Made by a program: the position numbers and the translations under genes. Shown piece by piece: positions 10,383-44,840 of a stretch of DNA of 64,000 bases (the stretch's first letter is position 1; each line of letters begins with the position of its first letter). The DNA is from an uncultured Mycobacteriaceae bacterium (GTDB lineage Bacteria > Actinomycetota > Actinomycetes > Mycobacteriales > Mycobacteriaceae). Location of the stretch: contig CADEGF010000003.1 in NCBI GenBank assembly GCA_902826815.1, forward strand, positions 1 to 64,000, in the 5' to 3' direction. The notes under the pieces are model-generated. The model was not told the origin of the DNA, did not search any database, and saw only the letters and a program-made list of their open reading frames with translations.

Positions 10383-10808
10383 TCAGTCGTAGATGACGTC
10401 GAGCCCGCGCCGCGCAAGGTCGGCCATCGTTTCGCGCATTGCCTGCAACTGCTCGGGGGTATGGCCGACCCAGTCGGTCAGCTCTCCGACCACCCTCACC
10501 GGGTCACGGGTGCGGTAGGAGCGTGTCGGATTCCCGGGGTGCTTCTTGTCCGTGACGTTCGGGTCGTCCTCGAGCGGTCCGTCCGGTTCGACGATGTAGA
10601 TCCGGCCAGGGCCGTCGCCTGACGCCAGCTCCGCTCCCCACACCGCGGCATCGACTGTTTGAGTGACGTACACGTGGTTGGCCACGCGGTTGCCGTCGTA
10701 GTTCATTCGGCGGCCGGGCACCAACACGTCGCCGACCGCAAGATCTGCCTTGGTGCCGTGCAACAGCGCGCCCGATTCGTGCACGACGAAAGGCTTCGGC
10801 GTCGTCAA
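10383..10808 (-). CDS. arr: Rifampin ADP-ribosyltransferase
   Basis: The 141-residue protein is the full length of the small Arr family, which inactivates rifamycins by transferring ADP-ribose from NAD+ to the antibiotic. H17 (in LHGTKADL), Y47 (in NHVYVTQT) and D82 (in LEDDPNVT) match the key residues of the M. smegmatis enzyme (H19, Y49, D84) with a constant offset of two. GRIYIVEPDGPLEDDPN is a hallmark segment. It is divergent from the FKBP lipoprotein across about 80 bp and convergent with the MBL hydrolase. Presence of arr implies intrinsic rifampicin resistance. Confidence 0.93.
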   Translation of the reverse strand: MTTPKPFVVHESGALLHGTKADLAVGDVLVPGRRMNYDGNRVANHVYVTQTVDAAVWGAELASGDGPGRIYIVEPDGPLEDDPNVTDKKHPGNPTRSYRTRDPVRVVGELTDWVGHTPEQLQAMRETMADLARRGLDVIYD

Positions 10809-28982: not shown

Positions 28983-29363
28983 TCAGTGGGTCGGGTCAAT
29001 CAGGTTTCGGAAGCTCGCCGCCGGATATACCGACGCACCTGCACCCCGGACCCGTTCGACGAGGCCGCCATCCGACGTCACCACCGTCACGTCCTGCGGA
29101 GCATCGTCGGCCTGGACGAGCCGGACGATCTCGTCGTCGGCCGAGTTGGCGGCGGCCCGCGGCGCGTGCGCTATCTCGATCACCGACGAGACGATAGGCG
29201 GCGACGGCGGCCGCTCGAACACCACCGTCACGCGGTGCTCTGTCGAGGCCCAATGCTCGAGACGATCGACAAGCGTGGCCATCGCGCTCCGCCGGTCCTT
29301 CCACCAGCCGTCGGGCCTGCTGCCGATGACATTCATCGCGTCGACTATCCAGCGCTGAGTCAT
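28983..29363 (-). CDS. NYN/PIN-fold ribonuclease-like protein (YacP type)
   Basis: The 126-residue protein reads RWIVDAMNVIGSRPDGWWKD at the start, then NSADDEIVRLVQADDAPQDV and VVTSDGGLVERVRGAGA. The acidic residues in VDAMN, ADDEI and SDGGL form the PIN/NYN metal site, so nuclease activity is likely. It is the third gene of a minus-strand operon after ArsR and SRPBCC genes, with ATGA overlap to the SRPBCC gene. Confidence 0.82.
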   Translation of the reverse strand: MTQRWIVDAMNVIGSRPDGWWKDRRSAMATLVDRLEHWASTEHRVTVVFERPPSPPIVSSVIEIAHAPRAAANSADDEIVRLVQADDAPQDVTVVTSDGGLVERVRGAGASVYPAASFRNLIDPTH

Positions 29364-29797
29364 TCCTCGCCCAGTGCGGCGGCGAGCTGCTCGCAGGTAA
29401 GTGTCCAGCCGCCGTCGAAGCTCTGGAACTCCTCCGGCGGAAGCAGTGAGTGCTCGATCGACATGAGGGTCTCGTCATCACCGACCGCCTCGAACGCGAC
29501 GTTGACGATGCTTTCCATCGTCGGATCCGGCCAGTTCGAGTTGGACCACGTGAGCCGCAGCAGGCGCGGGCGGTCGATGGTGAGGAACTGGCCCGTGATC
29601 AGGACACGCGTGCCCTCATCGTCGACATCGAGGCGCCATATCCCGCCGACGTGCGGCTCGACGGTGACGTCGACGACGTTGACGGGGCGGGGACACATCC
29701 ACTCCTGCAACGACTCCCGGTCGAGCCATTCGTCGAACACGACGTCCGGCGCCGCGGGCATCACACGCTGAACCCGCACAGTCGCCGTTTCCGTCAT
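29360..29797 (-). CDS. SRPBCC (AHSA1-like) domain protein
   Basis: The 145-residue protein starts at the ATG at 29797 (TETATVRVQRVMPAAPDVVF) and contains DEWLDRESLQEWMCP, VEPHVGGIWRLDVDDEG and SLLPPEEFQSFDGGWTLTCE, the blocks of the AHSA1-type START-like fold. Such proteins bind hydrophobic ligands and often sit beside an ArsR regulator, as here: the start overlaps the ArsR stop by ATGA and the stop overlaps the NYN gene start. The ligand is unknown. Confidence 0.85.
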   Translation of the reverse strand: MTETATVRVQRVMPAAPDVVFDEWLDRESLQEWMCPRPVNVVDVTVEPHVGGIWRLDVDDEGTRVLITGQFLTIDRPRLLRLTWSNSNWPDPTMESIVNVAFEAVGDDETLMSIEHSLLPPEEFQSFDGGWTLTCEQLAAALGEE

Positions 29798-30126
29798 CGG
29801 CGGTTGCCCTTCCTGCGCAGTCTCGCCGAGAGGGCGTCGGCACGTGTGGACCAGAACTCCGACTGCTCGGTTATCCACCGCTGGGCCACGGTCAAACCTT
29901 CCGGCTGCAGCGACAACCAGTGCTCACGGCCACGCACGTCCCGCCGCACCAGGCCTGCCGCCTCCAGCACGCCGACATGGCGCGACACACCCGCGAAGGT
30001 CATCGGCAGCGGCGCAGCCAAATCGGAGATGCGGGCGTCGCCCTGTCGCAGCGTCTCCAACAGCCATCGTCGGGTCGGATCGGCGAGCGCGCCGTACGCG
30101 CGGTCCAGAACCTGATCTTCAACCAT
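29794..30126 (-). CDS. ArsR-family transcriptional regulator
   Basis: The 110-residue protein starts at the ATG at 30126. YGALADPTRRWLLETLRQGD, RISDLAAPLPMTFAGVSRHV and GVLEAAGLVRRDVRGREHW form the ArsR winged helix; there is no metal-binding Cys motif, so the signal is not a soft metal. The C-terminal WITEQSEFWSTRADALSARL helix is typical of the SRPBCC-linked subgroup. It heads the ArsR/SRPBCC/NYN operon and probably acts on the dyad at 30172-30189, which it shares with the divergent DUF899 operon. Confidence 0.87.
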   Translation of the reverse strand: MVEDQVLDRAYGALADPTRRWLLETLRQGDARISDLAAPLPMTFAGVSRHVGVLEAAGLVRRDVRGREHWLSLQPEGLTVAQRWITEQSEFWSTRADALSARLRRKGNRR

Positions 30127-30171
30127 ATTGTTGACTATAACGGCCTCCCATGATCTGCTGGACGAAAGTTG

Positions 30172-30189
30172 TTCAACTGAAATGTTGAA
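30172..30189. promoter_or_regulatory. ArsR-type operator dyad
   Basis: TTCAAC-TGAAAT-GTTGAA is a perfect 6-6-6 dyad in the 96-bp space between the ArsR gene (starting at 30126) and the DUF899 gene (30223). Its position allows control of both promoters. Confidence 0.65.
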
Positions 30190-30222
30190 TGATTTGGTGG
30201 TGGCCCGACGACAGGAGATGGC

Positions 30223-30921
30223 ATGCAGACGCCTCCGATTGTGTCGGCGCAGGAGTGGGAGGCTGCGCGGCAGGAGATGCTCGTCAAGGAGAAGGAACAC
30301 ACCAGGGCGCGCGATGCGCTTGCCGCGATGCGCAGGCGAATGCCGTGGACAGCGGTGGAGAAGTCCTACGAGTTCGACGGTCCCGACGGCAGAGTCGGCC
30401 TGCTCGACCTGTTCCACGGGCGACGCCAGTTGATCGTCTACCGCGCCTTCCTGGACCCAGGAGTGCACGGATGGCCCGAGCACGGGTGCGTCGGCTGCTC
30501 GTTGATGGCCGACCACGTCGGCAATCTTGCACATCTGAACGCCCGCGACACCACGCTCGTCTACGCATCTCGCGGTTCGCAGGCAGACGTCGCGCGGATC
30601 AAGGCCCGAATGGGTTGGGATCACCCGTGGTACACCATCGTTCCCGGACCTGAAGGGGCCTTTGACACGGATTTCGGTGTGGACGAATGGCACGGCACCA
30701 ACGCGTTCATCCGCGACGGCGATCGGATATTTCGGACCTACGTCATCGACAGCCGCGGCGACGAGGTGTTCGACAACACCTTCCACTTCCTGGACATGAC
30801 GGCACTGGGCAGGCAGGAGACCTGGGAGGACTCCCCAGAAGGTTATCCGCAGACCAAGCCCTACGAATGGTGGCGCTGGCACGACGATTACGGCGATAAC
30901 GACTCCATGCCGAAGGAGTGA
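30223..30921 (+). CDS. DUF899 thioredoxin-fold protein (first copy)
   Basis: The 232-residue protein matches the DUF899 family: WEAARQEMLVKEKEHTRARD, GLLDLFHGRRQLIVYRAFLD, the C-x2-C of HGCVGCSLMADHVGNL, and the ending TWEDSPEGYPQTKPYEWWRW. The fold is thioredoxin-like and the CxxC suggests redox chemistry, but no activity is established. AGGAG precedes the ATG. It is the first of three genes in a plus-strand operon that also contains a second DUF899 protein. Confidence 0.87.
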   Translation: MQTPPIVSAQEWEAARQEMLVKEKEHTRARDALAAMRRRMPWTAVEKSYEFDGPDGRVGLLDLFHGRRQLIVYRAFLDPGVHGWPEHGCVGCSLMADHVGNLAHLNARDTTLVYASRGSQADVARIKARMGWDHPWYTIVPGPEGAFDTDFGVDEWHGTNAFIRDGDRIFRTYVIDSRGDEVFDNTFHFLDMTALGRQETWEDSPEGYPQTKPYEWWRWHDDYGDNDSMPKE

Positions 30922-30925
30922 CCCG

Positions 30926-31594
30926 ATGTTCGAAGTCGAACCAAGAGAGGTTGCCGGGATCTATCGAGAGGCGATGGATCGGATCACGTCGTTGGTTAGC
31001 GGTCTGGACGACGACCGGCTGGAAACCACCGTGTCGGCCTGTCCCAAGTGGTCGGTGCGTGACGTGGTGGCACATCTTGCGGCCGTGGCCGACGACTGGG
31101 GCCGAGGGCGTTTGACGGGTGCGCCGACCGAGGAACAGACAGCGGAGCAGGTCGCCCGGTTCGATGGCCACGACCTCTCTGAGATCGTCAGCGCGTGGAG
31201 CGTGGCGGCCGCTCACCTGAGCCACCTGGCCGTAACCGAATGCCTGGAACCACCGATCGGTGATGTTGCGGCCCATGAACACGATATCCGCGCCGCGTTG
31301 GGCAGGCCGAGCGCCCGTGACTCCGACGCAGTTAACTACTCGTCGGACCGCCTGCTGAAGAACCTTCGGACGCCGGTGCCGCTGCATGTGACAGTGGAGG
31401 ACGCCGAGTATCGCAGCGGCCCCGACGATGGCGCCGAAATACGGCTCCGCACCACACGATTCGAGGCGCTGCGCTGGCGAACGGGCCGGCGCAGCCGTGC
31501 GCAACTCGCGGCGATGGACTGGTCAGATGACCCGGAACGGGTACTCGATCACCTGTACATATTCGGCCCGGCAGAAACCGACATCGTCGAATAG
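30926..31594 (+). CDS. Maleylpyruvate-isomerase-like DinB-fold protein
   Basis: The 222-residue protein starts with IYREAMDRITSLVSGLDDDR and contains CPKWSVRDVVAHLAAVADDW and DVAAHEHDIRAALG, the histidine pattern of the TIGR03083/mycothiol-dependent maleylpyruvate isomerase family, a four-helix DinB-type metal-binding fold. Members often act on mycothiol conjugates. It starts 4 bp after the first DUF899 gene and ends 15 bp before the second, so all three are one transcription unit. Confidence 0.83.
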   Translation: MFEVEPREVAGIYREAMDRITSLVSGLDDDRLETTVSACPKWSVRDVVAHLAAVADDWGRGRLTGAPTEEQTAEQVARFDGHDLSEIVSAWSVAAAHLSHLAVTECLEPPIGDVAAHEHDIRAALGRPSARDSDAVNYSSDRLLKNLRTPVPLHVTVEDAEYRSGPDDGAEIRLRTTRFEALRWRTGRRSRAQLAAMDWSDDPERVLDHLYIFGPAETDIVE

Positions 31595-31609
31595 CCCAAA
31601 GGGGGAAAC

Positions 31610-32374
31610 ATGAAAAGTGACTCACCACATCGTGATTCAGTCAACGGTGCACCGACGCCGGCGACCGTCGACCGAGCGACCTTCGAAGCCGAAATCGAGA
31701 GCCTGCGCGTCCGGGAGAAGGCGCACATCCGGCAGGGCGACGCGATCGCCGCGGCCCGCCGGGCCTTGCCCATGGTCGAGGTCGACGCCAGCCTCGAGCT
31801 GATCGGGCCCGACGGACCGGTCACGCTGCTGGACGCCTTCGACGGGCGACGCCAGCTGCTGGCCTATTACTTCATGTGGAACGCCGGCAAGTCCGCGCCC
31901 GACCAGTGCGAAGGCTGTACGTGGGTCACCACGCAGGTGCAGGAGCTCGGCTACCTCCACTCCCGCGACATCACCTATGCGGTCTTCTGTCAGGGGCCGT
32001 ACGAGGAAGGCGCCCGCTACCGCGACTTCATGAATTGGCATGTGCCGTGGTACTCGGCACTCCCCTCACTCGACGAGCTTCTCGTCGGCCGCACCGCGGG
32101 GATGATGCACATCGTTTGTTACCTACGCGGCGACGGCGACCGCGTCTACGAGACGTACTGGACGACGATGCGCGGCGTCGAGGCGATGGATAACAGCCTC
32201 GCACTGATGGATCTCACGGTGTACGGACGCCAGGAGCCCTGGGAGGACTCCCCTGCGGGCTGGCCGCAGAAGTGGATCGTCGACGGCTCCAACACGCGGA
32301 TCGACGGGCGCCCCATCCCGCAATGGTCGCGCCTCGACGCCGGCCGTTCGGACGACCTCAGCGGCGTGCGTTGA
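31610..32374 (+). CDS. DUF899 thioredoxin-fold protein (second copy)
   Basis: The 254-residue protein is a paralogue of the one encoded at 30223. It has LRVREKAHIRQGDAIAAARR, LLDAFDGRRQLLAYYFMWNA, C-x2-C in QCEGCTWVTTQVQELGYL, and WEDSPAGWPQKWIVDGSNTR. Two divergent DUF899 copies flank the DinB-like gene. Shared operon structure suggests that the two act on related substrates or as partners. The function is unknown. Confidence 0.86.
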   Translation: MKSDSPHRDSVNGAPTPATVDRATFEAEIESLRVREKAHIRQGDAIAAARRALPMVEVDASLELIGPDGPVTLLDAFDGRRQLLAYYFMWNAGKSAPDQCEGCTWVTTQVQELGYLHSRDITYAVFCQGPYEEGARYRDFMNWHVPWYSALPSLDELLVGRTAGMMHIVCYLRGDGDRVYETYWTTMRGVEAMDNSLALMDLTVYGRQEPWEDSPAGWPQKWIVDGSNTRIDGRPIPQWSRLDAGRSDDLSGVR

Positions 32375-36365: not shown

Positions 36366-36398
36366 GACCGCTGGCGCTGGATCTTCGAAGGGCCAATC

Positions 36399-37748
36399 GT
36401 GACGCATACAGTGCAGGCCGGCACCGCAGTCGGCAACCCCGCTCCCTCTCGCAGGGAGGACGCGATCGGACCGCCGCCCGCCAGCCCGACGCTGGTGCCT
36501 GCCGACCGCTACCGCTCTCCGGCGTTCGCGCAACTCGAGGTCGACCGGATGTGGCCGAAGGTGTGGCAGGTCGCCTGCACCGTCGACCACGTCGCCGAGC
36601 CCGGCGACTACTTCGAGTACCGCTGCGGTCCCTACTCGGTTCTGGTGGTTCGCGGCGACGACGGTGAGCTTCGAGCTTTCCAGAACGTGTGCCGACATCG
36701 CGGCAACTCACTGTGCAATGGCGCCGGTTCGGAATTGCGGGAGTTGAAATGCGGATACCACGGCTGGACCTGGGACCTGTCAGGGGCGCTGAAGCGAGTG
36801 CCCAACCGAAAGGGATTCGGCGCGCTGCACATGTCGGAATTCCCTTTGCTCGCAGCGAAAGTCGACACGTGGGAACGATTGGTCTTCGTTACCCTCGATG
36901 TCGAGGCGATGCCGTTGAGCGACTGGCTCGAGTCGGTGCCGGAGGATATTGCGTGGTGCTCGCTGGGTGACTTCCGTTGCTACGCCACCATCACCGTCGA
37001 TGTGGATGCCAACTGGAAGACGATCGCAGACGGCTTCAGCGAGACTTATCACATCCAGACGCTGCATCCGGAGTTGCACAGGTGCATGGACGATGTCTAT
37101 GCACCACAAGTGATCTGGGGACGCACCGGCAAATCCGAGCAGGTCTACGGCGTACCCAGCCCGCAGATCAAGGAGCCGCTCACCGATGCAGACGTGTGGG
37201 ATGCCTACGTGACGACTCAGGGTGCGCTGATGGGGGTCGCCGAAGACACCCCTGTCCCGGCCGATCGCCTGCCAGGGCAACCGATCTCCGACGTGATAGC
37301 CGAGCGCACGAAGGCCTTCGCAGGAGAACGTGGTGTCGACTTGAGCTGGGCGTCGACCGATCAGGTGATGCGGTTGCATCAATACAACGTCTTTCCGAAC
37401 ATGTCGCTGCTGACCAACGCCGATCACATGACTGTGCTGACCGCTCGCCCAGGGCCTGATCCGGATCGGGGCGAACTGGTGATGATCCTGTGGACGCGGA
37501 TGGCGCCGGGAGCGCCGCGGATCAAACCGACCGATATGAGGGTGACGGCCGAAGAAGCGCATCCCGGCCTGGTGCTGACCCAGGACATCGCCGTGCTCGC
37601 GGGCCTGCAGCGCGGCCTTCAGCAGCCAGGGCTCACCCACCTGACGCTGTCCAACGAGGAGCGTCGGGTGATCAACATGCACCGCAACCTCGAGCGCTGC
37701 CTGGATCTGCCGGAGTCCGAGCGGATGACCGGAGGTGAGAGCCCGTGA
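36399..37748 (+). CDS. Rieske non-heme iron oxygenase, large subunit type
   Basis: From GTG 36399 the protein has 449 residues. C98-x-H100 and C118-x2-H121 (CRHRG... CGYHGWTW) bind the Rieske [2Fe-2S] cluster. ADGFSETYHIQTLH carries the Asp and His ligands of the mononuclear iron that activates O2. This is the alpha-subunit design of aromatic-ring and other hydroxylating oxygenases; reductase and ferredoxin genes are not adjacent. The 3' end overlaps the TetR start (GTGA). Pairing with an amidohydrolase suggests breakdown of an acylated or aromatic amide, as an inference. Confidence 0.88.
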   Translation: MTHTVQAGTAVGNPAPSRREDAIGPPPASPTLVPADRYRSPAFAQLEVDRMWPKVWQVACTVDHVAEPGDYFEYRCGPYSVLVVRGDDGELRAFQNVCRHRGNSLCNGAGSELRELKCGYHGWTWDLSGALKRVPNRKGFGALHMSEFPLLAAKVDTWERLVFVTLDVEAMPLSDWLESVPEDIAWCSLGDFRCYATITVDVDANWKTIADGFSETYHIQTLHPELHRCMDDVYAPQVIWGRTGKSEQVYGVPSPQIKEPLTDADVWDAYVTTQGALMGVAEDTPVPADRLPGQPISDVIAERTKAFAGERGVDLSWASTDQVMRLHQYNVFPNMSLLTNADHMTVLTARPGPDPDRGELVMILWTRMAPGAPRIKPTDMRVTAEEAHPGLVLTQDIAVLAGLQRGLQQPGLTHLTLSNEERRVINMHRNLERCLDLPESERMTGGESP

Positions 37749-38377
37749 AGCAACCGCTGGACGCCGAGACGATTCTCGACACCGCGGCGCGCCTGATCGA
37801 ACTCGACGGCGTGGACGCGTTCACCATGCGCGGTCTCGCCGAGGAACTGGACGTGGCCGTCACCTCGATCTACTGGCACATCGGCGGCAGGGACAAACTG
37901 TTCGACAGCCTGGTCGATCGGCTGCTGAGCCAGATGGCGCACCTGCCCGTCGAAGGCGAGACGCCCGTCGATCGCATTGCTTCACTTGCCCGTTCGCAGC
38001 GAACGCTACTGATCGAGCGACAGCATCTACTCGCGATCGCACACGAGCGCGACCGGACCCCGTTGCTGTTCCTGCCGATTCAGCAGATGCTGGCCGCAGC
38101 GCTGTCAGAAGTCGGTGTCACGGGAACCGACGCGGCGCTCATCCTGCGCGCGATACAGGTGCATGTGATCTCGTCGGCCGTCATGCAGTTCTCGGCCGTC
38201 CGTGGTGCCAAGCACGACGAAGAGGACCCCTCACTGTGGAGCGAGGACTGGCCCGACCGGGCGCTCGTCGAGGCGCTGCAGTCCCCGACCGACTACGACG
38301 CGGTCTTCGGCTACGGACTCAACGCTCTTCTGGCGCCGCTGCGGAGTCGCTCCTCCGACGTGGCCGCCGACGGGTAG
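37745..38377 (+). CDS. TetR-family transcriptional regulator
   Basis: The 210-residue protein starts KQPLDAETILDTAARLIELD, then VDAFTMRGLAEELDVAVTSI and YWHIGGRDKLFDSLVDRLL, a standard TetR helix-turn-helix. The remaining helical part would bind the ligand. It starts with GTG overlapping the oxygenase stop, so the regulator is made with its target, and it probably binds the palindrome at 36351-36365. Its 3' end overlaps the convergent membrane-protein gene by about 59 bp. Confidence 0.88.
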   Translation: MKQPLDAETILDTAARLIELDGVDAFTMRGLAEELDVAVTSIYWHIGGRDKLFDSLVDRLLSQMAHLPVEGETPVDRIASLARSQRTLLIERQHLLAIAHERDRTPLLFLPIQQMLAAALSEVGVTGTDAALILRAIQVHVISSAVMQFSAVRGAKHDEEDPSLWSEDWPDRALVEALQSPTDYDAVFGYGLNALLAPLRSRSSDVAADG

Positions 38378-38729
38378 CACCCCACAGCCCGACACCGATG
38401 CCGACGACCGCGCCCCCGAGACCGATCATCTGCTGCGATCGTTTCATTTCGTGGTGCACGCTCATCCCGCCGAGCAGGTCCGCCGCGTCGGCGCCTCCCG
38501 ACGCAAGGAACCAACCGCGAGTGTTCTTGCCGCGCACCGCCGACGACATCAGCAGGCCGCCGATCAACGCATCGCGGTAACCCATCGACCGCAACAGCAG
38601 CTGTGCCGTCGGCGCCGGTTCGTCGGGATCACCCCACAGCCGATTCGCGCGGAGCGGGTCGACGAGAAACGAGACGCCTGACGCAAAGCGGATACCCCCG
38701 ACGACGAGGGCTGCGCGGTCCACGGACAT
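38319..38729 (-). CDS. Small membrane protein, DUF4267-like
   Basis: The 136-residue protein has hydrophobic stretches (LVVGGIRFASGVSFLV, GYRDALIGGLLMSSAV, MIGLGGAVVGIGVGLWGA) and an Arg-rich C-terminus. The arrangement is like the DUF4267 family of small membrane proteins. The last 19 codons overlap the TetR gene on the other strand. The function is unknown. Confidence 0.62.
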   Translation of the reverse strand: MSVDRAALVVGGIRFASGVSFLVDPLRANRLWGDPDEPAPTAQLLLRSMGYRDALIGGLLMSSAVRGKNTRGWFLASGGADAADLLGGMSVHHEMKRSQQMIGLGGAVVGIGVGLWGATRRRPRRRSDSAAAPEER

Positions 38730-38739
38730 GGCAAGCAGC

Positions 38740-40128
38740 TTAAAGCGTCGTCGTCGAGGCGTGCGCAGCGCGCGCGATCGCGTCGGCCGACCGGTCGATA
38801 TCGTCGTCGGTCGTCGCCCAGTTCGATACCGAGACGCGAAGCACGTACTGCCCGTTCCAGGTGGTGCCGCCGAGCCAGCAGGTTCCGTCGCGTTGGACGG
38901 CGGCGACCGCGGCCCTGTTGGCGTCGTCGCCGCCCGGCAGCTGGATCAGCACCTGGTTGAGCACGACGTCGTTGAGGATATGCGTGCCGGGAATCGCCGC
39001 CAGCCGTTCGGCCATCCGCCGGGCACCGGCGCAGTTGCGGTCCACTATTTCGGCCACCCCGGCCCGGCCCAGTGACCGTAGCGCGGCGTAGATCGGCACG
39101 GCCCGTGCGCGTCGTGAGCTCTCGGGGACGTAGTTGGTGCCGTCGCGTTGGCCTGCATCGGCCACCAGGTATGGGCCCGCAAGGCTCATCGCGGCGATAT
39201 GGGCATCCGCATCGGCGACGATTGCCATGGCGCCGTCGTACGGCACGTTCAGCCATTTGTGCGCGTCGATCGCCCACGAGTCGGCACGATCGACGCCCTT
39301 CGTCAGGTGCCGAAGCGACGGCGTCGCCGCGGCCCACAGCCCGAACGCTCCGTCGACATGCAGCCAGGCGCCGTGTGCGGCGCAGGCTTCGGCAATTGGT
39401 TCGAACGCGTCGAACGCGCCGGTGGCCACGTTGCCCGCTTGTGCGCACACGATCGTCGGGCCGGAAGACCGGGCCAGCGCGTCGTCCAGCGCGTCGGGAC
39501 GCATCCGACCCTGGTCGTCGGCGGCGACGCGAACCGCTGTGTTGCCCCCCAGGCCGAGTAGGCGCAGCGCGGTGTCGATGGTCGCGTGGGCCTGTTCACC
39601 GCACAAGATGCGGATCGGCGGTGCACCGATGAGCCCGTCGCCCTCGACGTCCCAGCCTGCCTTCGCGAGTACCGCGTGACGTGCGGCGGCCAGGCATGTG
39701 GTGTTGGCGCCCTGCCCTCCGGTGACGAACCCGACGCTGGCGCGGGCGGGCAGTCCGAGTACGTCGACCGTCCACGCCGACGTGATCTCTTCGATGGCGG
39801 CGGCCGCGGGAGACAGTGCGTGAAACGCGGAATTCTGGTCCCAGGCCGAGACCAGCCAGTCCGCGGCCAGCGCGGCGGGCAATGCACCGCCGATCACGAA
39901 GCCGAAGTGGCGGGGACCGGCGGTGGCCACGAGACCGGGTTCCACGCCTGCCGCCAGCGCGTCGATGACGGCAGTCGGGTCCTCGCCGTGCTCCGGCAGT
40001 GGGCCGCCAAGCGCGTCGCGAACCCCGGCGGCGTCGACGCGGGCGGCCACCGGCCGGTCGTCGAGGCTATCGAGGAAATCGCGTGCGTGCTGTGCGGCGG
40101 CGGACAGACCTGCGGTGCGATCGTGCAT
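38740..40128 (-). CDS. PLP-dependent decarboxylase (group II type)
   Basis: The 462-residue protein follows the aromatic/glutamate decarboxylase group: GGALPAALAADWLVSAWDQN, FVTGGQGANTTCLAAARHA, the PLP-binding Asp in WLHVDGAFG (about residue 259), and the Schiff-base Lys in AIDAHKWLNVPYDG (K291). It removes the alpha-carboxyl of an amino acid, giving an amine, or runs a related aldehyde-forming reaction. It is the last gene of a three-gene operon with a flavoprotein (25-bp gap) and a FAAL. Such a context suggests an amine or amino acid joined to a fatty acid. The substrate cannot be assigned. Confidence 0.85.
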   Translation of the reverse strand: MHDRTAGLSAAAQHARDFLDSLDDRPVAARVDAAGVRDALGGPLPEHGEDPTAVIDALAAGVEPGLVATAGPRHFGFVIGGALPAALAADWLVSAWDQNSAFHALSPAAAAIEEITSAWTVDVLGLPARASVGFVTGGQGANTTCLAAARHAVLAKAGWDVEGDGLIGAPPIRILCGEQAHATIDTALRLLGLGGNTAVRVAADDQGRMRPDALDDALARSSGPTIVCAQAGNVATGAFDAFEPIAEACAAHGAWLHVDGAFGLWAAATPSLRHLTKGVDRADSWAIDAHKWLNVPYDGAMAIVADADAHIAAMSLAGPYLVADAGQRDGTNYVPESSRRARAVPIYAALRSLGRAGVAEIVDRNCAGARRMAERLAAIPGTHILNDVVLNQVLIQLPGGDDANRAAVAAVQRDGTCWLGGTTWNGQYVLRVSVSNWATTDDDIDRSADAIARAAHASTTTL

Positions 40129-40153
40129 GGGAAAAGCCTATCTACGCAAAGGT

Positions 40154-41338
40154 TTACAGTCCGAACTGGTCGGCGATGACGCCGAGCCAGATCGAAGCGG
40201 CGTCGATCGCCACCTTCTCGCTGATGAAGGCGTGCTGGGTGCCGGTGTAGATGTCGCGGAACGCCCGCTCGAGCCTGCTGCCTTCGCGGATCGAGCTGGT
40301 GCCCGCGACGAGATGGGCCCACTCGGCGCACCCGCGTGCGATGTCGGTCGCGTACACCGCGGCCGCGCGCATGTCCGCCCGCAGCGTCGGGGTCAGGTCT
40401 TCGCCTGCGGCGACCGCGGATTCCGCAGTGGTGAACGCGTCGAGCACGAGCAGGCGGGCGGCGCGCCACGCCGAAACGTGGTGCGCCAGACCCTTCTGGA
40501 AGGTCGGGCGGCTGGCCAGCGACGCCATATCGCTCATCCGGAACTTGGTGGCCGCGAGCTCGGCAACGTCGTCGAGCATGCTCTTGGCCACGCCGAGTGC
40601 CCAGGACGCGTGGCCCGCGGCCGTGACGGGCATCAGCCCCATGCGGGTGGCAGGCGAACTCCCCCGCATCGGCTCGCGGGAGAACAGTCTGAACGTGCGG
40701 CGCGCGGGCACGAATAGGTCCGTAGCGCTGTAGTCATAGGAGCCAGTTCCCTTGAGGCCCTGGACGAACCAGCCGTCGTTGAACGAGATCTCCTCCCGCG
40801 GCACCACCGCCACCTGCATATCGGGGATGCCCTCGGCGATCCAGCGCATCTCCCCGTTGTCCATCGGGAAGAAGCCTGCGGCGACGTATTCCGAATGACC
40901 GGTGCCGGAGCCGAAGCTCCAGGAGCCGGTCAACTGGTAACCGCCGTCGACGACGGTGCCCTGGCCGTTGGGAAAGAACTGGCCGCCCATCGTGACCCTG
41001 TTGTCGCGGGCGGTGAACACCTCAGCGAAGCCATCGTCGGGCAGATAGGCCGCGGCGGCGAACGAGGACGGCAGATTAGCGATACCGACCCAGCCGAACG
41101 AGCCGTCCTGCCAGGCCATTTCGATCCAGGTCTCGATCATCTCGGTGAACGACGGTTCGACACCGCCCGCCGCGACCGGGTTGAAGGACGACATCAGCCC
41201 GCAGGACCACATCGCTTCGACGATCGCCGGGGTGAGTGTGCGGCCGCGTTCGGACTCTGCGGCTTCGGCGGCAACGAGGTCGCGCATTCCGCGCGCCAAT
41301 CCGACGACCCGGTCGGGCGCTTCGGCTATCGACGTCAT
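40154..41338 (-). CDS. Acyl-CoA-dehydrogenase-fold flavoprotein (HsaA-like)
   Basis: The 394-residue protein has the helical N-terminal part (LMSSFNPVAAGGVEPSFTEM), the FAD-contacting GGYQLTGSWSFGSGTGHSEY segment and a C-terminal helical bundle (GTSSIREGSRLERAFRDIYT). The catalytic base of classical dehydrogenases is not obvious. The pattern is closer to the HsaA/DszC flavin-dependent monooxygenases, which hydroxylate aromatic or N-containing substrates using reduced flavin. It lies between the FAAL and PLP decarboxylase genes with gaps of 34 and 25 bp. Confidence 0.82.
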   Translation of the reverse strand: MTSIAEAPDRVVGLARGMRDLVAAEAAESERGRTLTPAIVEAMWSCGLMSSFNPVAAGGVEPSFTEMIETWIEMAWQDGSFGWVGIANLPSSFAAAAYLPDDGFAEVFTARDNRVTMGGQFFPNGQGTVVDGGYQLTGSWSFGSGTGHSEYVAAGFFPMDNGEMRWIAEGIPDMQVAVVPREEISFNDGWFVQGLKGTGSYDYSATDLFVPARRTFRLFSREPMRGSSPATRMGLMPVTAAGHASWALGVAKSMLDDVAELAATKFRMSDMASLASRPTFQKGLAHHVSAWRAARLLVLDAFTTAESAVAAGEDLTPTLRADMRAAAVYATDIARGCAEWAHLVAGTSSIREGSRLERAFRDIYTGTQHAFISEKVAIDAASIWLGVIADQFGL

Positions 41339-41372
41339 CTGCCGACCCTAGCGGCGGCGGGAGCGTCGCGCT

Positions 41373-43199
41373 TTAGCTTCCGAACGCGCCACTTAGATAC
41401 TCAGCCCGGCAGGCCCGCCGGGCCAGCTTGCCGCTCGTGGTGCGCGGGATCGCTCCCGCGGGGACGAGGAGCACGTCTGCGACGGAAAGACCATGTCGTC
41501 GAGCCACTTCAGCGCGGACTGCTGCGACGGCGGGAGCCGGGTCGGCGCGGCGGGTACCCGATGCCCGTTCGGCGACAATAACCAGTTCGCCTGCGTTGGA
41601 CGTGAACGCGGCGACATACCCGCGGCGCACCATCGGCGACGCCTCCGCGACGGTGATCTCGATGTCCTCCGGGTAGAGCCGCCGATCGTCGATGACGATG
41701 AGGTCGGCGATGCGTCCGGTGACGTAGAGCTCATCGTCGAGGTAGAACCCCAAGTCGCCCGTGCGCAGCCACGTTGCGTCGGCCGGGACGCCGTGCGCGT
41801 GGCTGTGTTCGGTTGCGTTCGAACGCAGAACCGCACCGAACGCCTGCCGTGTTTCATCGGGACGTGCCCAATAACCCCGGCCCACGTTGTCACCGTGCAC
41901 CCAGATCTCGCCGACTCGCCCGTCGGCAAGTTCAGTGCCCGCATCGGGATCGGTGATGACGCACCATTGACTGCGGGCGATCTGACCACATGACACGTGT
42001 TCCGTGGCGACAGGACTGTCGGCGGCGACGCGCACCGCCTCGCCCCTCTCCAACCTGCCGCTGTCGAGGTGGGCCACTGTCGGAGCGGCGGTCGGCGCGA
42101 TGGTGGAGACGAACAGGGTCGCCTCGGCGATGCCGTACGACGGCTTGATCGCGGTCGGCGGCAATCCGTAGGGCGCAAACGCAGTGTTGAACGCGTCGAT
42201 CGCACTGGGGCTCACCGGTTCCGACCCGAGAATCAGCACCACATTGCTGAGGTCCACGTCATCGCCGTTGGCAGGCACGCCGCGTTGGGCGGCGTACTCA
42301 CACGCGAAGTTCGGTGCGGCGGTCACGACGCGACCGGTCCGTGACGCCGCAGACAGCGCGTGGATCCAGCGCTCGGGTCGGCGAATGAACGCCGCAGGCG
42401 ACATCAGCGTCGAGTGTCCGCCATACACGGTGGGAAAGCCGATCATCGAGAGACCCATGTCGTGGTAGAGCGGTAACCAACTGCACCCGTGTGTGTTTCG
42501 GTCGAGAAGGTCGATGGACAGGATCATCTGAATTAGGTTGGTGCCGACCGCCCTGTGGGTGATCTCCACGCCGACGGGATCGCGCGTGGAACCCGAGGTG
42601 TACTGCAGATGGGAGATGTCCAGCGCGTCGACGTGAACCGGTACCAACGCATGCCCGGCCGAATCAGGGACATCGTCGACGGCGACCACATGTGGCCTCG
42701 GTGTGTGTCCGATCTCGGTGAGCGCGGCCTCGACGGCAGCCGACGCCGCCGACGTCGTGAGGACGACGGCCGGGCGTGAGTCGTGCAGGGCGATCGCGAG
42801 CCGTTCGGCGTGACCTTGCATCTCGGGTGCGAACAGCGGTACCGCGACGGTCCCGGCCTTGATGGCGGCGAAGAAGCCCGCGACGTAGTCGAGGCCCTGC
42901 GGAGCCAGCACCGCCACCCGATCGCCCCGCGAGGTGAACCGCTGGATCTCCGCCGCGATCGCGCGCATCCGCGTACCGAGTTGGGTCCAGGTCAATTCGT
43001 CGACGTAGCCGTTCTCCGCGCGGGTGTGGTCCAGGTAGCGGTACGCCACGGTGTCCCCGACGTTGGCGATGTTGCGCTCGATGAGCGAAATCAATGTGAT
43101 GTCGGACGGCAGCGCGATGTTGCCTGCCGCGTCGAGCACGTCCTCGATCTGCCACAGGCCCTCGCGAACGGGGGTCGTGAACGCTACTTCGGTACCCAT
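41373..43199 (-). CDS. Fatty-acyl-AMP ligase (FAAL, FadD type)
   Basis: The 608-residue protein is an adenylate-forming enzyme of the FAAL group: YTSGSTRDPVGVEITHRAVG (P-loop), SWLPLYHDMGLSMIGFPTVY, AAPNFACEYAAQRGVPANGD, and the C-terminal PRTTSGKLARRACRAEYLSG. FAALs make fatty-acyl-AMP and pass the acyl chain to an acyl carrier or NRPS/PKS domain instead of CoA. No carrier protein or PKS/NRPS gene is in this window. The ATG at 43199 is 48 bp from the divergent ligase region, over two palindromes. It heads the three-gene operon with the flavoprotein and the PLP decarboxylase. Confidence 0.9.
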   Translation of the reverse strand: MGTEVAFTTPVREGLWQIEDVLDAAGNIALPSDITLISLIERNIANVGDTVAYRYLDHTRAENGYVDELTWTQLGTRMRAIAAEIQRFTSRGDRVAVLAPQGLDYVAGFFAAIKAGTVAVPLFAPEMQGHAERLAIALHDSRPAVVLTTSAASAAVEAALTEIGHTPRPHVVAVDDVPDSAGHALVPVHVDALDISHLQYTSGSTRDPVGVEITHRAVGTNLIQMILSIDLLDRNTHGCSWLPLYHDMGLSMIGFPTVYGGHSTLMSPAAFIRRPERWIHALSAASRTGRVVTAAPNFACEYAAQRGVPANGDDVDLSNVVLILGSEPVSPSAIDAFNTAFAPYGLPPTAIKPSYGIAEATLFVSTIAPTAAPTVAHLDSGRLERGEAVRVAADSPVATEHVSCGQIARSQWCVITDPDAGTELADGRVGEIWVHGDNVGRGYWARPDETRQAFGAVLRSNATEHSHAHGVPADATWLRTGDLGFYLDDELYVTGRIADLIVIDDRRLYPEDIEITVAEASPMVRRGYVAAFTSNAGELVIVAERASGTRRADPAPAVAAVRAEVARRHGLSVADVLLVPAGAIPRTTSGKLARRACRAEYLSGAFGS

Positions 43200-43215
43200 A
43201 CCCCCAGTCTAGATT

Positions 43216-43241
43216 ACTGTAACCGACAGTTTCACTAACTG
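43216..43241. promoter_or_regulatory. Two overlapping palindromes in the FAAL/ligase divergent promoter
   Basis: ACTGT-AACCG-ACAGT (43216-43230) and CAGTT-TCACT-AACTG (43227-43241) are both perfect 5-5-5 dyads that share four bases. They fill the space between the FAAL start at 43199 and the acyl-CoA-ligase gene. They look like paired operator sites for one TetR- or GntR-size dimer each and could switch both units together. No regulator gene is adjacent. Confidence 0.65.
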
Positions 43242-43283
43242 ACGGATGTGGTCATGGTCACGCGCATCGGAGAAGATCGGCGG

Positions 43284-44840
43284 GTGACCGAGCCCCGGCC
43301 GACCGTGCCCGCACTCCTTGCCCGATGTGTGACGGAGTTCGGCCGACAGACGTACGTCGTGAGCCCCACCGACCGGCTGACCTACGAGCAGGCCGAGCAT
43401 CGGTCGGCAGACCTCGCGCGCTGGCTGTTGAGCCAGAACGTCGGCAAGGGCAGTCGGGTTGGGCTGTTCTTTCCCAACGGTGTCGAGTGGGTCGTGTGGT
43501 GGCTTGCGGTGTCCCGCATCGGCGCGATGGCCGTGCCGCTCAGCACGATGTATGCACCCGCGGAGCTCGCGAAAGTGGTGCGGCTTGCCGACATCGGCGT
43601 GCTCGTGGCCCCTGCCAGGATGGTGAAGATCGACGTCGCGGAGCGGCTCGAAGCCGCCATGCCCGAGCTGACCGATCAGACGGGCGACACGCTTTTCCTG
43701 CGTGCAGCCCCGTACCTGCGACGCATCGTGCTGACCGCCGACACCGACCGGAGTTGGGCAGTGCGATGGAACGCGAGCTCCACCGCCCTTGCACCGCAAG
43801 ACATTCTGGCCGCCGTCGAAGCAGAGGTGTCACCAGCCGACCCTGCCGTGATGGTGCACACCTCCGGCTCGACCGCCGACCCGAAAGGGGTCGTCCACAC
43901 CCACGGCACCCTGGTCCGGCAGACGTCGACGTGGCCCGCCGCGATTCGGACCGTCACCCGTGCAGGGTCTTCGGCGTCATCGGCCACCATCCTGTGTGCC
44001 ATGCCGTTCTTCTGGATCGGCGGGCTGCTCGCCACCACGGGAGCGCTGCACGAGCACGTCACCCTGCTGGTCGTCCCCCGGCTCGACGCCGGAGCCGCGC
44101 TCGAGCTCATCGAGCAGGAACGAGCAACCGGGGTTGTCGGGTGGCCGGCCTTCACCCAGCGGTTGCGCGAGCACCCGACATTCGCCAGCCGCGATCTCGC
44201 CAGCGCACCGATGCTCCGGGACGGGCCATTGGATATCGCGATGACCGATGTCCCCGACGGGTTCCCGGTGCACCGCACCATGTCTGAGACCGCAGGCGGA
44301 TTCGCGTACACGGAAATGCGAATCGTCGACGACGGCGGCCAACCGGTGCCCGATGGCACCGTTGGCGAGCTGCTCATCCGTGGCATCGGGGTGATGTCGG
44401 GCTACAACAAGCGCGAACGCTACGAGACGTTCGACGCCGACGGCTGGTATCACACCGGTGACCGGGTATACCGGGTCGGAGGCGATCCGCGGTTGTTCTA
44501 CGTCGGGCGCACAAGTGAACTCATCAAGTCGGCCGGGGCGAATGTGTCGCCGCTGGAGGTCGAGTCGGTGATCGAACAATTCGGCGAAGTCGCGCAGTGC
44601 GTGGTCGTCGGAATCGACGACCCGGTACGGGGCGAGCAGGTCTGCGCTGTCGTGGTACCTGCCGTTGCCGAGATCGATATGGCATCGGTCGCCGCGCGAA
44701 CGCGTGAGCAGTTGTCGGCATTCAAGGTGCCGACCAGGTGGGTGCTGGCGACGAGTGATCAGATTCCGACCCTGCCGAGCGGAAAGCTGAACCGGAAAGG
44801 GCTACGGGCGCTGGTGGTCGACGGAACGTTGGGACGCTAG
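43284..44840 (+). CDS. Class I adenylate-forming enzyme (acyl-CoA synthetase type)
   Basis: The 518-residue protein has VMVHTSGSTADPKGVVHTHG (P-loop), the YHTGDRVYRVGGDPR region, VGRTSELIKSAGANVSPLEV (hinge) and the catalytic Lys in LPSGKLNRKGLRAL. It activates a carboxylic acid with ATP, probably for CoA thioester formation. GTG 43284 is preferred because GGAGAAG lies 8 nt upstream; the frame also opens at GTG 43248 and ATG 43254. It is divergent from the FAAL operon across shared palindromes, suggesting use in the same pathway. Confidence 0.86.
   Translation: MTEPRPTVPALLARCVTEFGRQTYVVSPTDRLTYEQAEHRSADLARWLLSQNVGKGSRVGLFFPNGVEWVVWWLAVSRIGAMAVPLSTMYAPAELAKVVRLADIGVLVAPARMVKIDVAERLEAAMPELTDQTGDTLFLRAAPYLRRIVLTADTDRSWAVRWNASSTALAPQDILAAVEAEVSPADPAVMVHTSGSTADPKGVVHTHGTLVRQTSTWPAAIRTVTRAGSSASSATILCAMPFFWIGGLLATTGALHEHVTLLVVPRLDAGAALELIEQERATGVVGWPAFTQRLREHPTFASRDLASAPMLRDGPLDIAMTDVPDGFPVHRTMSETAGGFAYTEMRIVDDGGQPVPDGTVGELLIRGIGVMSGYNKRERYETFDADGWYHTGDRVYRVGGDPRLFYVGRTSELIKSAGANVSPLEVESVIEQFGEVAQCVVVGIDDPVRGEQVCAVVVPAVAEIDMASVAARTREQLSAFKVPTRWVLATSDQIPTLPSGKLNRKGLRALVVDGTLGR

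Follow-up and report, generated by a model that had tools for sequence, protein, structure and literature searches.

We analysed the first 64,000 nucleotides (the window) of contig CADEGF010000003.1 (C3) from the genome of an uncultured Mycobacteriaceae bacterium (assembly GCA_902826815.1, 6.87 Mb), with a focus on a set of genes spanning positions 38319-44840. Open reading frames (ORFs) for a fatty acyl-AMP ligase (FAAL), a flavin-dependent monooxygenase (FMO), a group II pyridoxal phosphate (PLP)-dependent decarboxylase (DC) and a DUF4267 protein follow one another in this order on the minus strand, separated by 34, 25 and 10 bp, and an AMP-forming ligase, hereafter the AMP ligase, is encoded divergently on the other side of FAAL (Table 1). 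A previous interpretation made from the letters alone, the sequence-only reading, had taken the first three genes as one operon for a new pathway and had overlooked the DUF4267 gene. Altogether, the evidence points to enzymes of known families that have been gathered in a handful of species, and it favours independent genes.

Enzyme classes encoded at the locus

Profile and PDB comparisons agree with the enzyme classes that the sequence-only reading had proposed, namely a FAAL, a DszC/HsaA-type flavoprotein, a group II decarboxylase and a divergent adenylate-forming ligase. The FAAL exceeds the NCBIfam cut-off of PRK12476, a subfamily of FadD32-like FAALs (1038 vs 922 bits), and aligns through the region that follows the A5 motif with the FadD32-like copy of the genome. 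FadD32-type ligases are its most similar proteins in the PDB, FadD32 itself being among the best matches. The FAAL nonetheless differs from FadD32: it stays under the FadD32 cut-off of NCBIfam (748 vs 975), and what we infer to be the FadD32 of this genome is another copy, on contig C4, that adjoins a carrier-bearing frame of 1819 aa. From the gene order that we take to be that of M. tuberculosis, FAAL possibly matches the FadD31/Rv1925 neighbourhood; a literature search on gene order in the FadD31 region found nothing. The FAAL-type insertion region aligns with the FadD32-like paralogues and is absent from the neighbouring AMP ligase, which has its own deletion there; five aligned AMP ligase sequences all lack a short segment directly behind the TE (A5-like) motif. 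The ORF of the AMP ligase (43248-44840) carries an AMP-binding domain, and its best NCBIfam match among the 25 of 107 families shown is under the cut-off (238 vs 476). Judging from the N-termini of orthologues, translation more likely starts at the GTG at 43284 than at 43248.

The best profile for the FMO is Acyl-CoA_dh_2 (PF08028, 123.5 bits), and Acyl-CoA_dh_1 (PF00441) also matches, more weakly (31.2 bits for a cut-off of 22.4). Its nearest relatives in the PDB are Rv3094c (E 1e-34), then 2or0 (described as a 'hydroxylase'), HsaA-type enzymes, XiaF, HPAH C2 and DszC, with near full-length alignments to Rv3094c, 2or0, the HsaA-type enzymes and XiaF. The FMO has in common with these two-component flavin monooxygenases a W-x-(F/W/Y)-x-(S/T)-G segment and a C-terminal RD-x6-H motif, which aligns with that of Rv3094c, 2or0, 2rfq and XiaF and places its histidine at the position of Rv3094c His351. 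In the report on Rv3094c, this residue is described as a proton donor, and ethionamide sulfoxidation with FMN is reported, pairing with a reductase being presumed (PMC9904262). Since the closest proteins of known structure are monooxygenases and the C-terminal histidine is retained, the FMO is much more likely a monooxygenase than an ordinary acyl-CoA dehydrogenase, in line with the monooxygenase type assigned by the sequence-only reading. It differs from the known enzymes in that E-values only range from 1e-34 to 4e-4 and that a PF01613 reductase gene is missing from its vicinity. It is not an HsaA equivalog (120.6 bits vs a cut-off of 450 for NF045629) and scores far under the HPAH cut-off of NCBIfam.

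While an adjacent flavin reductase gene is common for two-component (group D) flavin monooxygenases, it is not required. No PF01613 flavin reductase was detected in the window or on contig C3, and five PF01613 matches lie elsewhere in the genome. Likewise, a search for PF00550 carrier domains at E<=1e-5 found none in the window, and 21 carrier-domain matches are found elsewhere in the genome. ORFs of the size of a carrier are present on contigs C29 (108-aa frame) and C22 (168-aa frame). With neither partner in the window, FAAL and FMO would thus rely on unlinked partners.

The DC has a Pyridoxal_deC domain (142 bits, above the cut-off), and the lysine of DAHKW, the aspartate of HVDGA and one histidine stand at the usual group II positions, where we presume that they fulfil the usual PLP-related roles. 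It shares the domain and these residues with group II enzymes such as DOPA/aromatic decarboxylases, DABA decarboxylase and 4rit. In contrast to the aromatic decarboxylases, the loop before its RR pair reads DGTNYVPESSRR, and a tyrosine is present but shifted from what we take to be the expected position of the catalytic-loop tyrosine. The DC reaches no equivalog (substrate-specific) cut-off of NCBIfam.

Table 1. Position of the genes and predicted elements discussed in the text
Feature	Position	Strand	Basis or remark
Fatty acyl-AMP ligase (FAAL), PRK12476 subfamily, 608 aa	41373..43199	-	domain and NCBIfam profiles, PDB comparison
Flavin-dependent monooxygenase (FMO), oxygenase component, 394 aa	40154..41338	-	acyl-CoA-dehydrogenase superfamily, DszC/HsaA/Rv3094c type
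Group II PLP-dependent decarboxylase (DC), 462 aa	38740..40128	-	sporadic in the genus
DUF4267 protein	38319..38729	-	10 bp after DC
Divergent AMP-forming ligase	43284..44840	+	start 43284 favoured over 43248
Predicted -10 box TAGACT	43206..43211	-	6 nt before FAAL ATG, leaderless
Predicted -10 box TAGGGT	41345..41350	-	6 nt before FMO ATG, leaderless
Predicted -10 box TAGGCT	40135..40140	-	6 nt before DC ATG, leaderless
Imperfect, conserved dyad that may be an operator of the FAAL promoter	43214..43241		contains both palindromes of the sequence-only reading
Family-I prolyl-tRNA synthetase (ProS), second ProRS of the genome	44860..46266	-	neighbour, probably outside the set

Distribution and gene order in relatives

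All distribution counts refer to one common set of 297 genomes of the genus. FAAL relatives are found in 245 of these at E<=1e-225, FMO relatives in 224 at E<=1e-30 (197 at 1e-160, as counted by eye from the listing) and AMP ligase relatives in 90 at E<=1e-180. The DC is more sporadic, with 41 genomes at E<=1e-60, 26 of which have a DC that is at least 74% identical; the highest identities are mostly found in Mycolicibacterium and Mycobacterium records.

Only three of the 41 DC genomes have FMO and FAAL alongside DC: the window, M. stellerae and M. sp. 1274761.0, where the gap between FMO and DC is 303 bp and DUF4267 was not found at the locus. Two other members of this small clade depart from the arrangement. 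In M. agri the locus reads FAAL-DC-DUF4267 and continues with the same genes for TetR, Rieske and amidohydrolase proteins; neither an FMO relative (E<=1e-30) nor an AMP ligase (E<=1e-150) was found in its genome. In 1482268.1, a 574-aa ORF with methyltransferase domains on the opposite strand separates FMO and DC. In each of the five clade members found, FAAL is accompanied by DC. A DC tree groups the sequences of four clade members (support 99/99) among mycobacterial DCs; it excludes 1482268.1, whose DC is split over two contigs (L188 and L214). Between species, dN/dS is 0.08-0.19 for every gene tested, indicating purifying selection.

Outside the clade the genes are scattered. All 38 other DC loci were covered (22 + 16; ~8 kb to either side, several being truncated by contig ends), and FMO, FAAL or AMP ligase were found near DC in none of them. 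Conversely, DC is near FMO in 0/76 loci, a sample of the ~194 other FMO orthologue loci picked from listed places, some FMO places being unlisted. AMP ligase lies within 1 kb of FMO in 11 of these 76 loci. DUF4267 is near FMO in four, without FAAL and DC, and the order ProS-AMP ligase-FMO-DUF4267 is seen without FAAL or DC in L135, L136, L142 and L143.

We also considered the DC neighbours as a clue to its substrate. At 21 mycobacterial DC loci outside the clade, genes for an FBP aldolase (12), an alpha/beta hydrolase (10) and an amidase (7) occur within four genes, from which no substrate follows; three loci were unscored, as their DC ORF did not cluster. In more distant genomes no common DC neighbour was seen. 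Separately, a DC from Antrihabitans sp. YC2-6 (Nocardiaceae; L178, 8001-9368) is 82% identical to that of the window and is placed among the mycobacterial DCs, which may reflect transfer between genera.

Promoters and the FAAL/AMP ligase intergenic region

FAAL, FMO and DC each have a TANNNT motif exactly 6 nt before their ATG (Table 1), as in mycobacterial leaderless promoters. In M. tuberculosis, TANNNT is reported upstream of 73% of primary starts (PMC3898074). When alternative in-frame starts are admitted, 22/27 DC and 15/15 FAAL upstream regions carry the box, for a background of 192/1212 genes taken from a simple ORF caller; controls shifted by 10-40 nt gave 0-1 (DC) and 0-3 (FAAL). All five clade members have the DC box. 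These conserved -10 boxes argue for separate predicted starts of FAAL and DC, with which read-through is still compatible. The single operon had been deduced from the gaps and is not confirmed here; each gene has its own predicted leaderless -10 box. Short gaps in a mycobacterial genome can thus mimic an operon; on comparison, the genes look like recent neighbours, two of which have their own conserved -10 boxes.

The sequence-only reading had also highlighted two overlapping perfect palindromes between FAAL and AMP ligase. They do exist (43216-43230 and 43227-43241, each of 15 bp with 5-bp arms and a 5-bp spacer), but no special significance can be attached to them, as 363 of 2000 (18%) random 48-mers of the window contain an overlapping pair of such 5-bp-arm repeats, and we rejected them as evidence. 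Four relatives nonetheless retain the stretch itself, among them M. agri, where the AMP ligase is missing. Among 200 shuffles, those as good as the best dyad numbered 27 for the window, 50 for M. stellerae, 97 for 1274761.0, 91 for M. agri and 2 for 1482268.1, so that the dyad is unusual solely in the latter (11/13 pairs over 27 bp). Judged by its sequence, the dyad at 43214-43241 is a possible candidate repressor site at the FAAL promoter.

FAAL and AMP ligase also face each other elsewhere in the genus. Among 18 loci picked by eye for the proximity of both genes, hence no random sample, they are direct neighbours in two (L237 and L238) and face each other across 2-5 genes in 11 more, the remaining five (L243-L246, L249) not being divergent neighbours. 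No FMO or DC was seen among the rows shown for the loci where they face each other (L232-L242, L247, L248). We consider a FAAL that faces a divergent AMP ligase, recurrent in the genus and with no carrier gene in the window, as a more useful lead than the pathway proposed earlier; we do not claim that this pair is unstudied, as our literature searches were not aimed at it. Elsewhere in the window, an AHSA1 gene and two DUF899 genes (29360-32374) belong to clusters of which other members separate FAAL from AMP ligase in L232-L236 and L239-L242.

A neighbourhood of independent genes or a pathway

We propose, with a probability of about 0.7, that the locus is a lineage-specific neighbourhood of enzymes of known families, with separate histories and probably separate promoters, and not a dedicated pathway. 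Families, gene order, distribution and the conserved FAAL and DC -10 boxes are read from the sequence. The substrates and regulation that we suggest here, like the absence of a shared product, are deduced. FAAL would produce acyl-AMP for a carrier encoded elsewhere, and AMP ligase, which would have the intergenic region and the possible repressor site in common with FAAL, probably forms acyl-CoA. FMO would act as the oxygenase component of a two-component monooxygenase with a reductase whose gene lies elsewhere, and DC would decarboxylate an amino acid. In one small clade, FAAL would have come to separate AMP ligase from FMO, and DC to separate FMO from DUF4267. The window therefore resembles a mosaic assembled from genes of separate history, and which way the changes went is deduced as well. 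Under purifying selection, the genes appear to work, but not evidently together.

Several observations weigh against this reading. Between the window and M. stellerae, dN/dS is 0.17 for FAAL, 0.09 for FMO and 0.12 for DC, and because these values are low and the arrangement has persisted, the three genes look functional in place. The single origin of DC in the four clade members is consistent with one event followed by retention, and transcription could read through the gaps of 34 and 25 bp. Outside the clade, FAAL is loosely linked to FMO, at 3.7-8.3 kb, in 17 of the 76 loci, and a distant DC relative (50-51% identity) lies ~13 and ~20 kb from FMO in two genomes (G145 and G124). As for the leaderless promoters, they are predictions, and internal promoters are compatible with co-transcription. 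The FMO box is poorly conserved outside the clade (29/79, shifted controls 1-11). When the aligned start alone is considered, the DC box is found in 18/27 regions with 6 at the 10-nt shift, and the FAAL box in 9/15 with 1 at the same shift; matches at the 10-nt shift probably reflect starts upstream of the alignment.

Among the alternatives, FAAL and DC, with DUF4267, could form a real unit in which the amine made by DC is acylated from a FAAL-loaded carrier, FMO being a bystander. The FAAL-DC-DUF4267 order of M. agri, without FMO, and the presence of both genes together throughout the clade speak for such a unit. We nevertheless find it unlikely: neither an amine acyltransferase nor a carrier was recognised, the -10 boxes are separate, FAAL is present at none of the 38 other DC loci, and DUF4267 accompanies FMO without FAAL or DC in four genomes and was not found at the 1274761.0 locus.

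The pathway of the sequence-only reading, in which FAAL, FMO and DC jointly make a lipid-amine or a modified fatty acid in the small clade, draws on the short-gap gene order in the window and M. stellerae, on the purifying selection acting on the three genes and on the single origin of the clade DC. Against it stand the lack of an FMO relative in M. agri, the splitting of FMO and DC in 1482268.1, the separate conserved -10 boxes of FAAL and DC, a window without carrier protein or flavin reductase, and a DC that occurs without FMO or FAAL at all 38 other loci. We regard it as unlikely. A single new pathway is unsupported when 38 of the 41 DC genomes lack FMO and FAAL alongside DC. The genes are thus mostly not kept together across species, with 0/76 FMO loci having DC; this holds only in large part, because within the clade most members retain the order. 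A five-term literature search found nothing, one combining FAAL, pyridoxal, decarboxylase and lipid amine returned off-topic matches only, as judged from the listing, and the terms decarboxylase, monooxygenase and amine are absent from the main text of a 2025 review on FAALs (PMC11837247).

It would be a long shot that the clade makes a new mycobacterial lipid, in which DC and an N- or C-oxidising FMO would yield an amine or hydroxylamine acylated from the FAAL product, the extra ProRS serving as aminoacyl donor or for self-protection.

The last alternative borrows from valanimycin biosynthesis, where VlmL supplies seryl-tRNA and VlmH is acyl-CoA dehydrogenase-like. DC would make an alkylamine, FMO would N-hydroxylate it, and the second ProRS would supply aminoacyl-tRNA as VlmL does. 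Like enzyme classes are indeed adjacent here, with an extra tRNA synthetase beside AMP ligase, and for valanimycin VlmH is described to N-hydroxylate isobutylamine once valine has been decarboxylated (PMC7347517). The likeness of DC and FMO to VlmD and VlmH is one of enzyme class, the DC-FMO pair is not conserved, ProS was not found in the stretch covered in M. sp. 1274761.0 (G170) and no VlmA-like transferase was recognised. We rejected this parallel as the main explanation because FMO is widespread without DC, and consider it the least likely of all.

As to the neighbouring genes, ProS is a family-I prolyl-tRNA synthetase that exceeds the TIGR00408 cut-off. A second ProS frame of the genome (583 aa, contig C28) is 28-30% identical to it in two partial matches, and the copy of the window could be a resistance or special-purpose copy. 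ProS also adjoins AMP ligase in L061, L135, L136, L142 and L143. We rejected it as a member of the set, as it is near FMO in only 4 of the 76 other loci and was not found in the G170 stretch. On the other side, a Rieske oxygenase gene and a TetR gene (36393-38377, plus strand), which overlap by 4 bp, adjoin the locus in clade members and form another small unit. Finally, the window carries an Arr-type rifampin ADP-ribosyltransferase gene (10383-10808, minus strand; Arr-ms, 160 bits).

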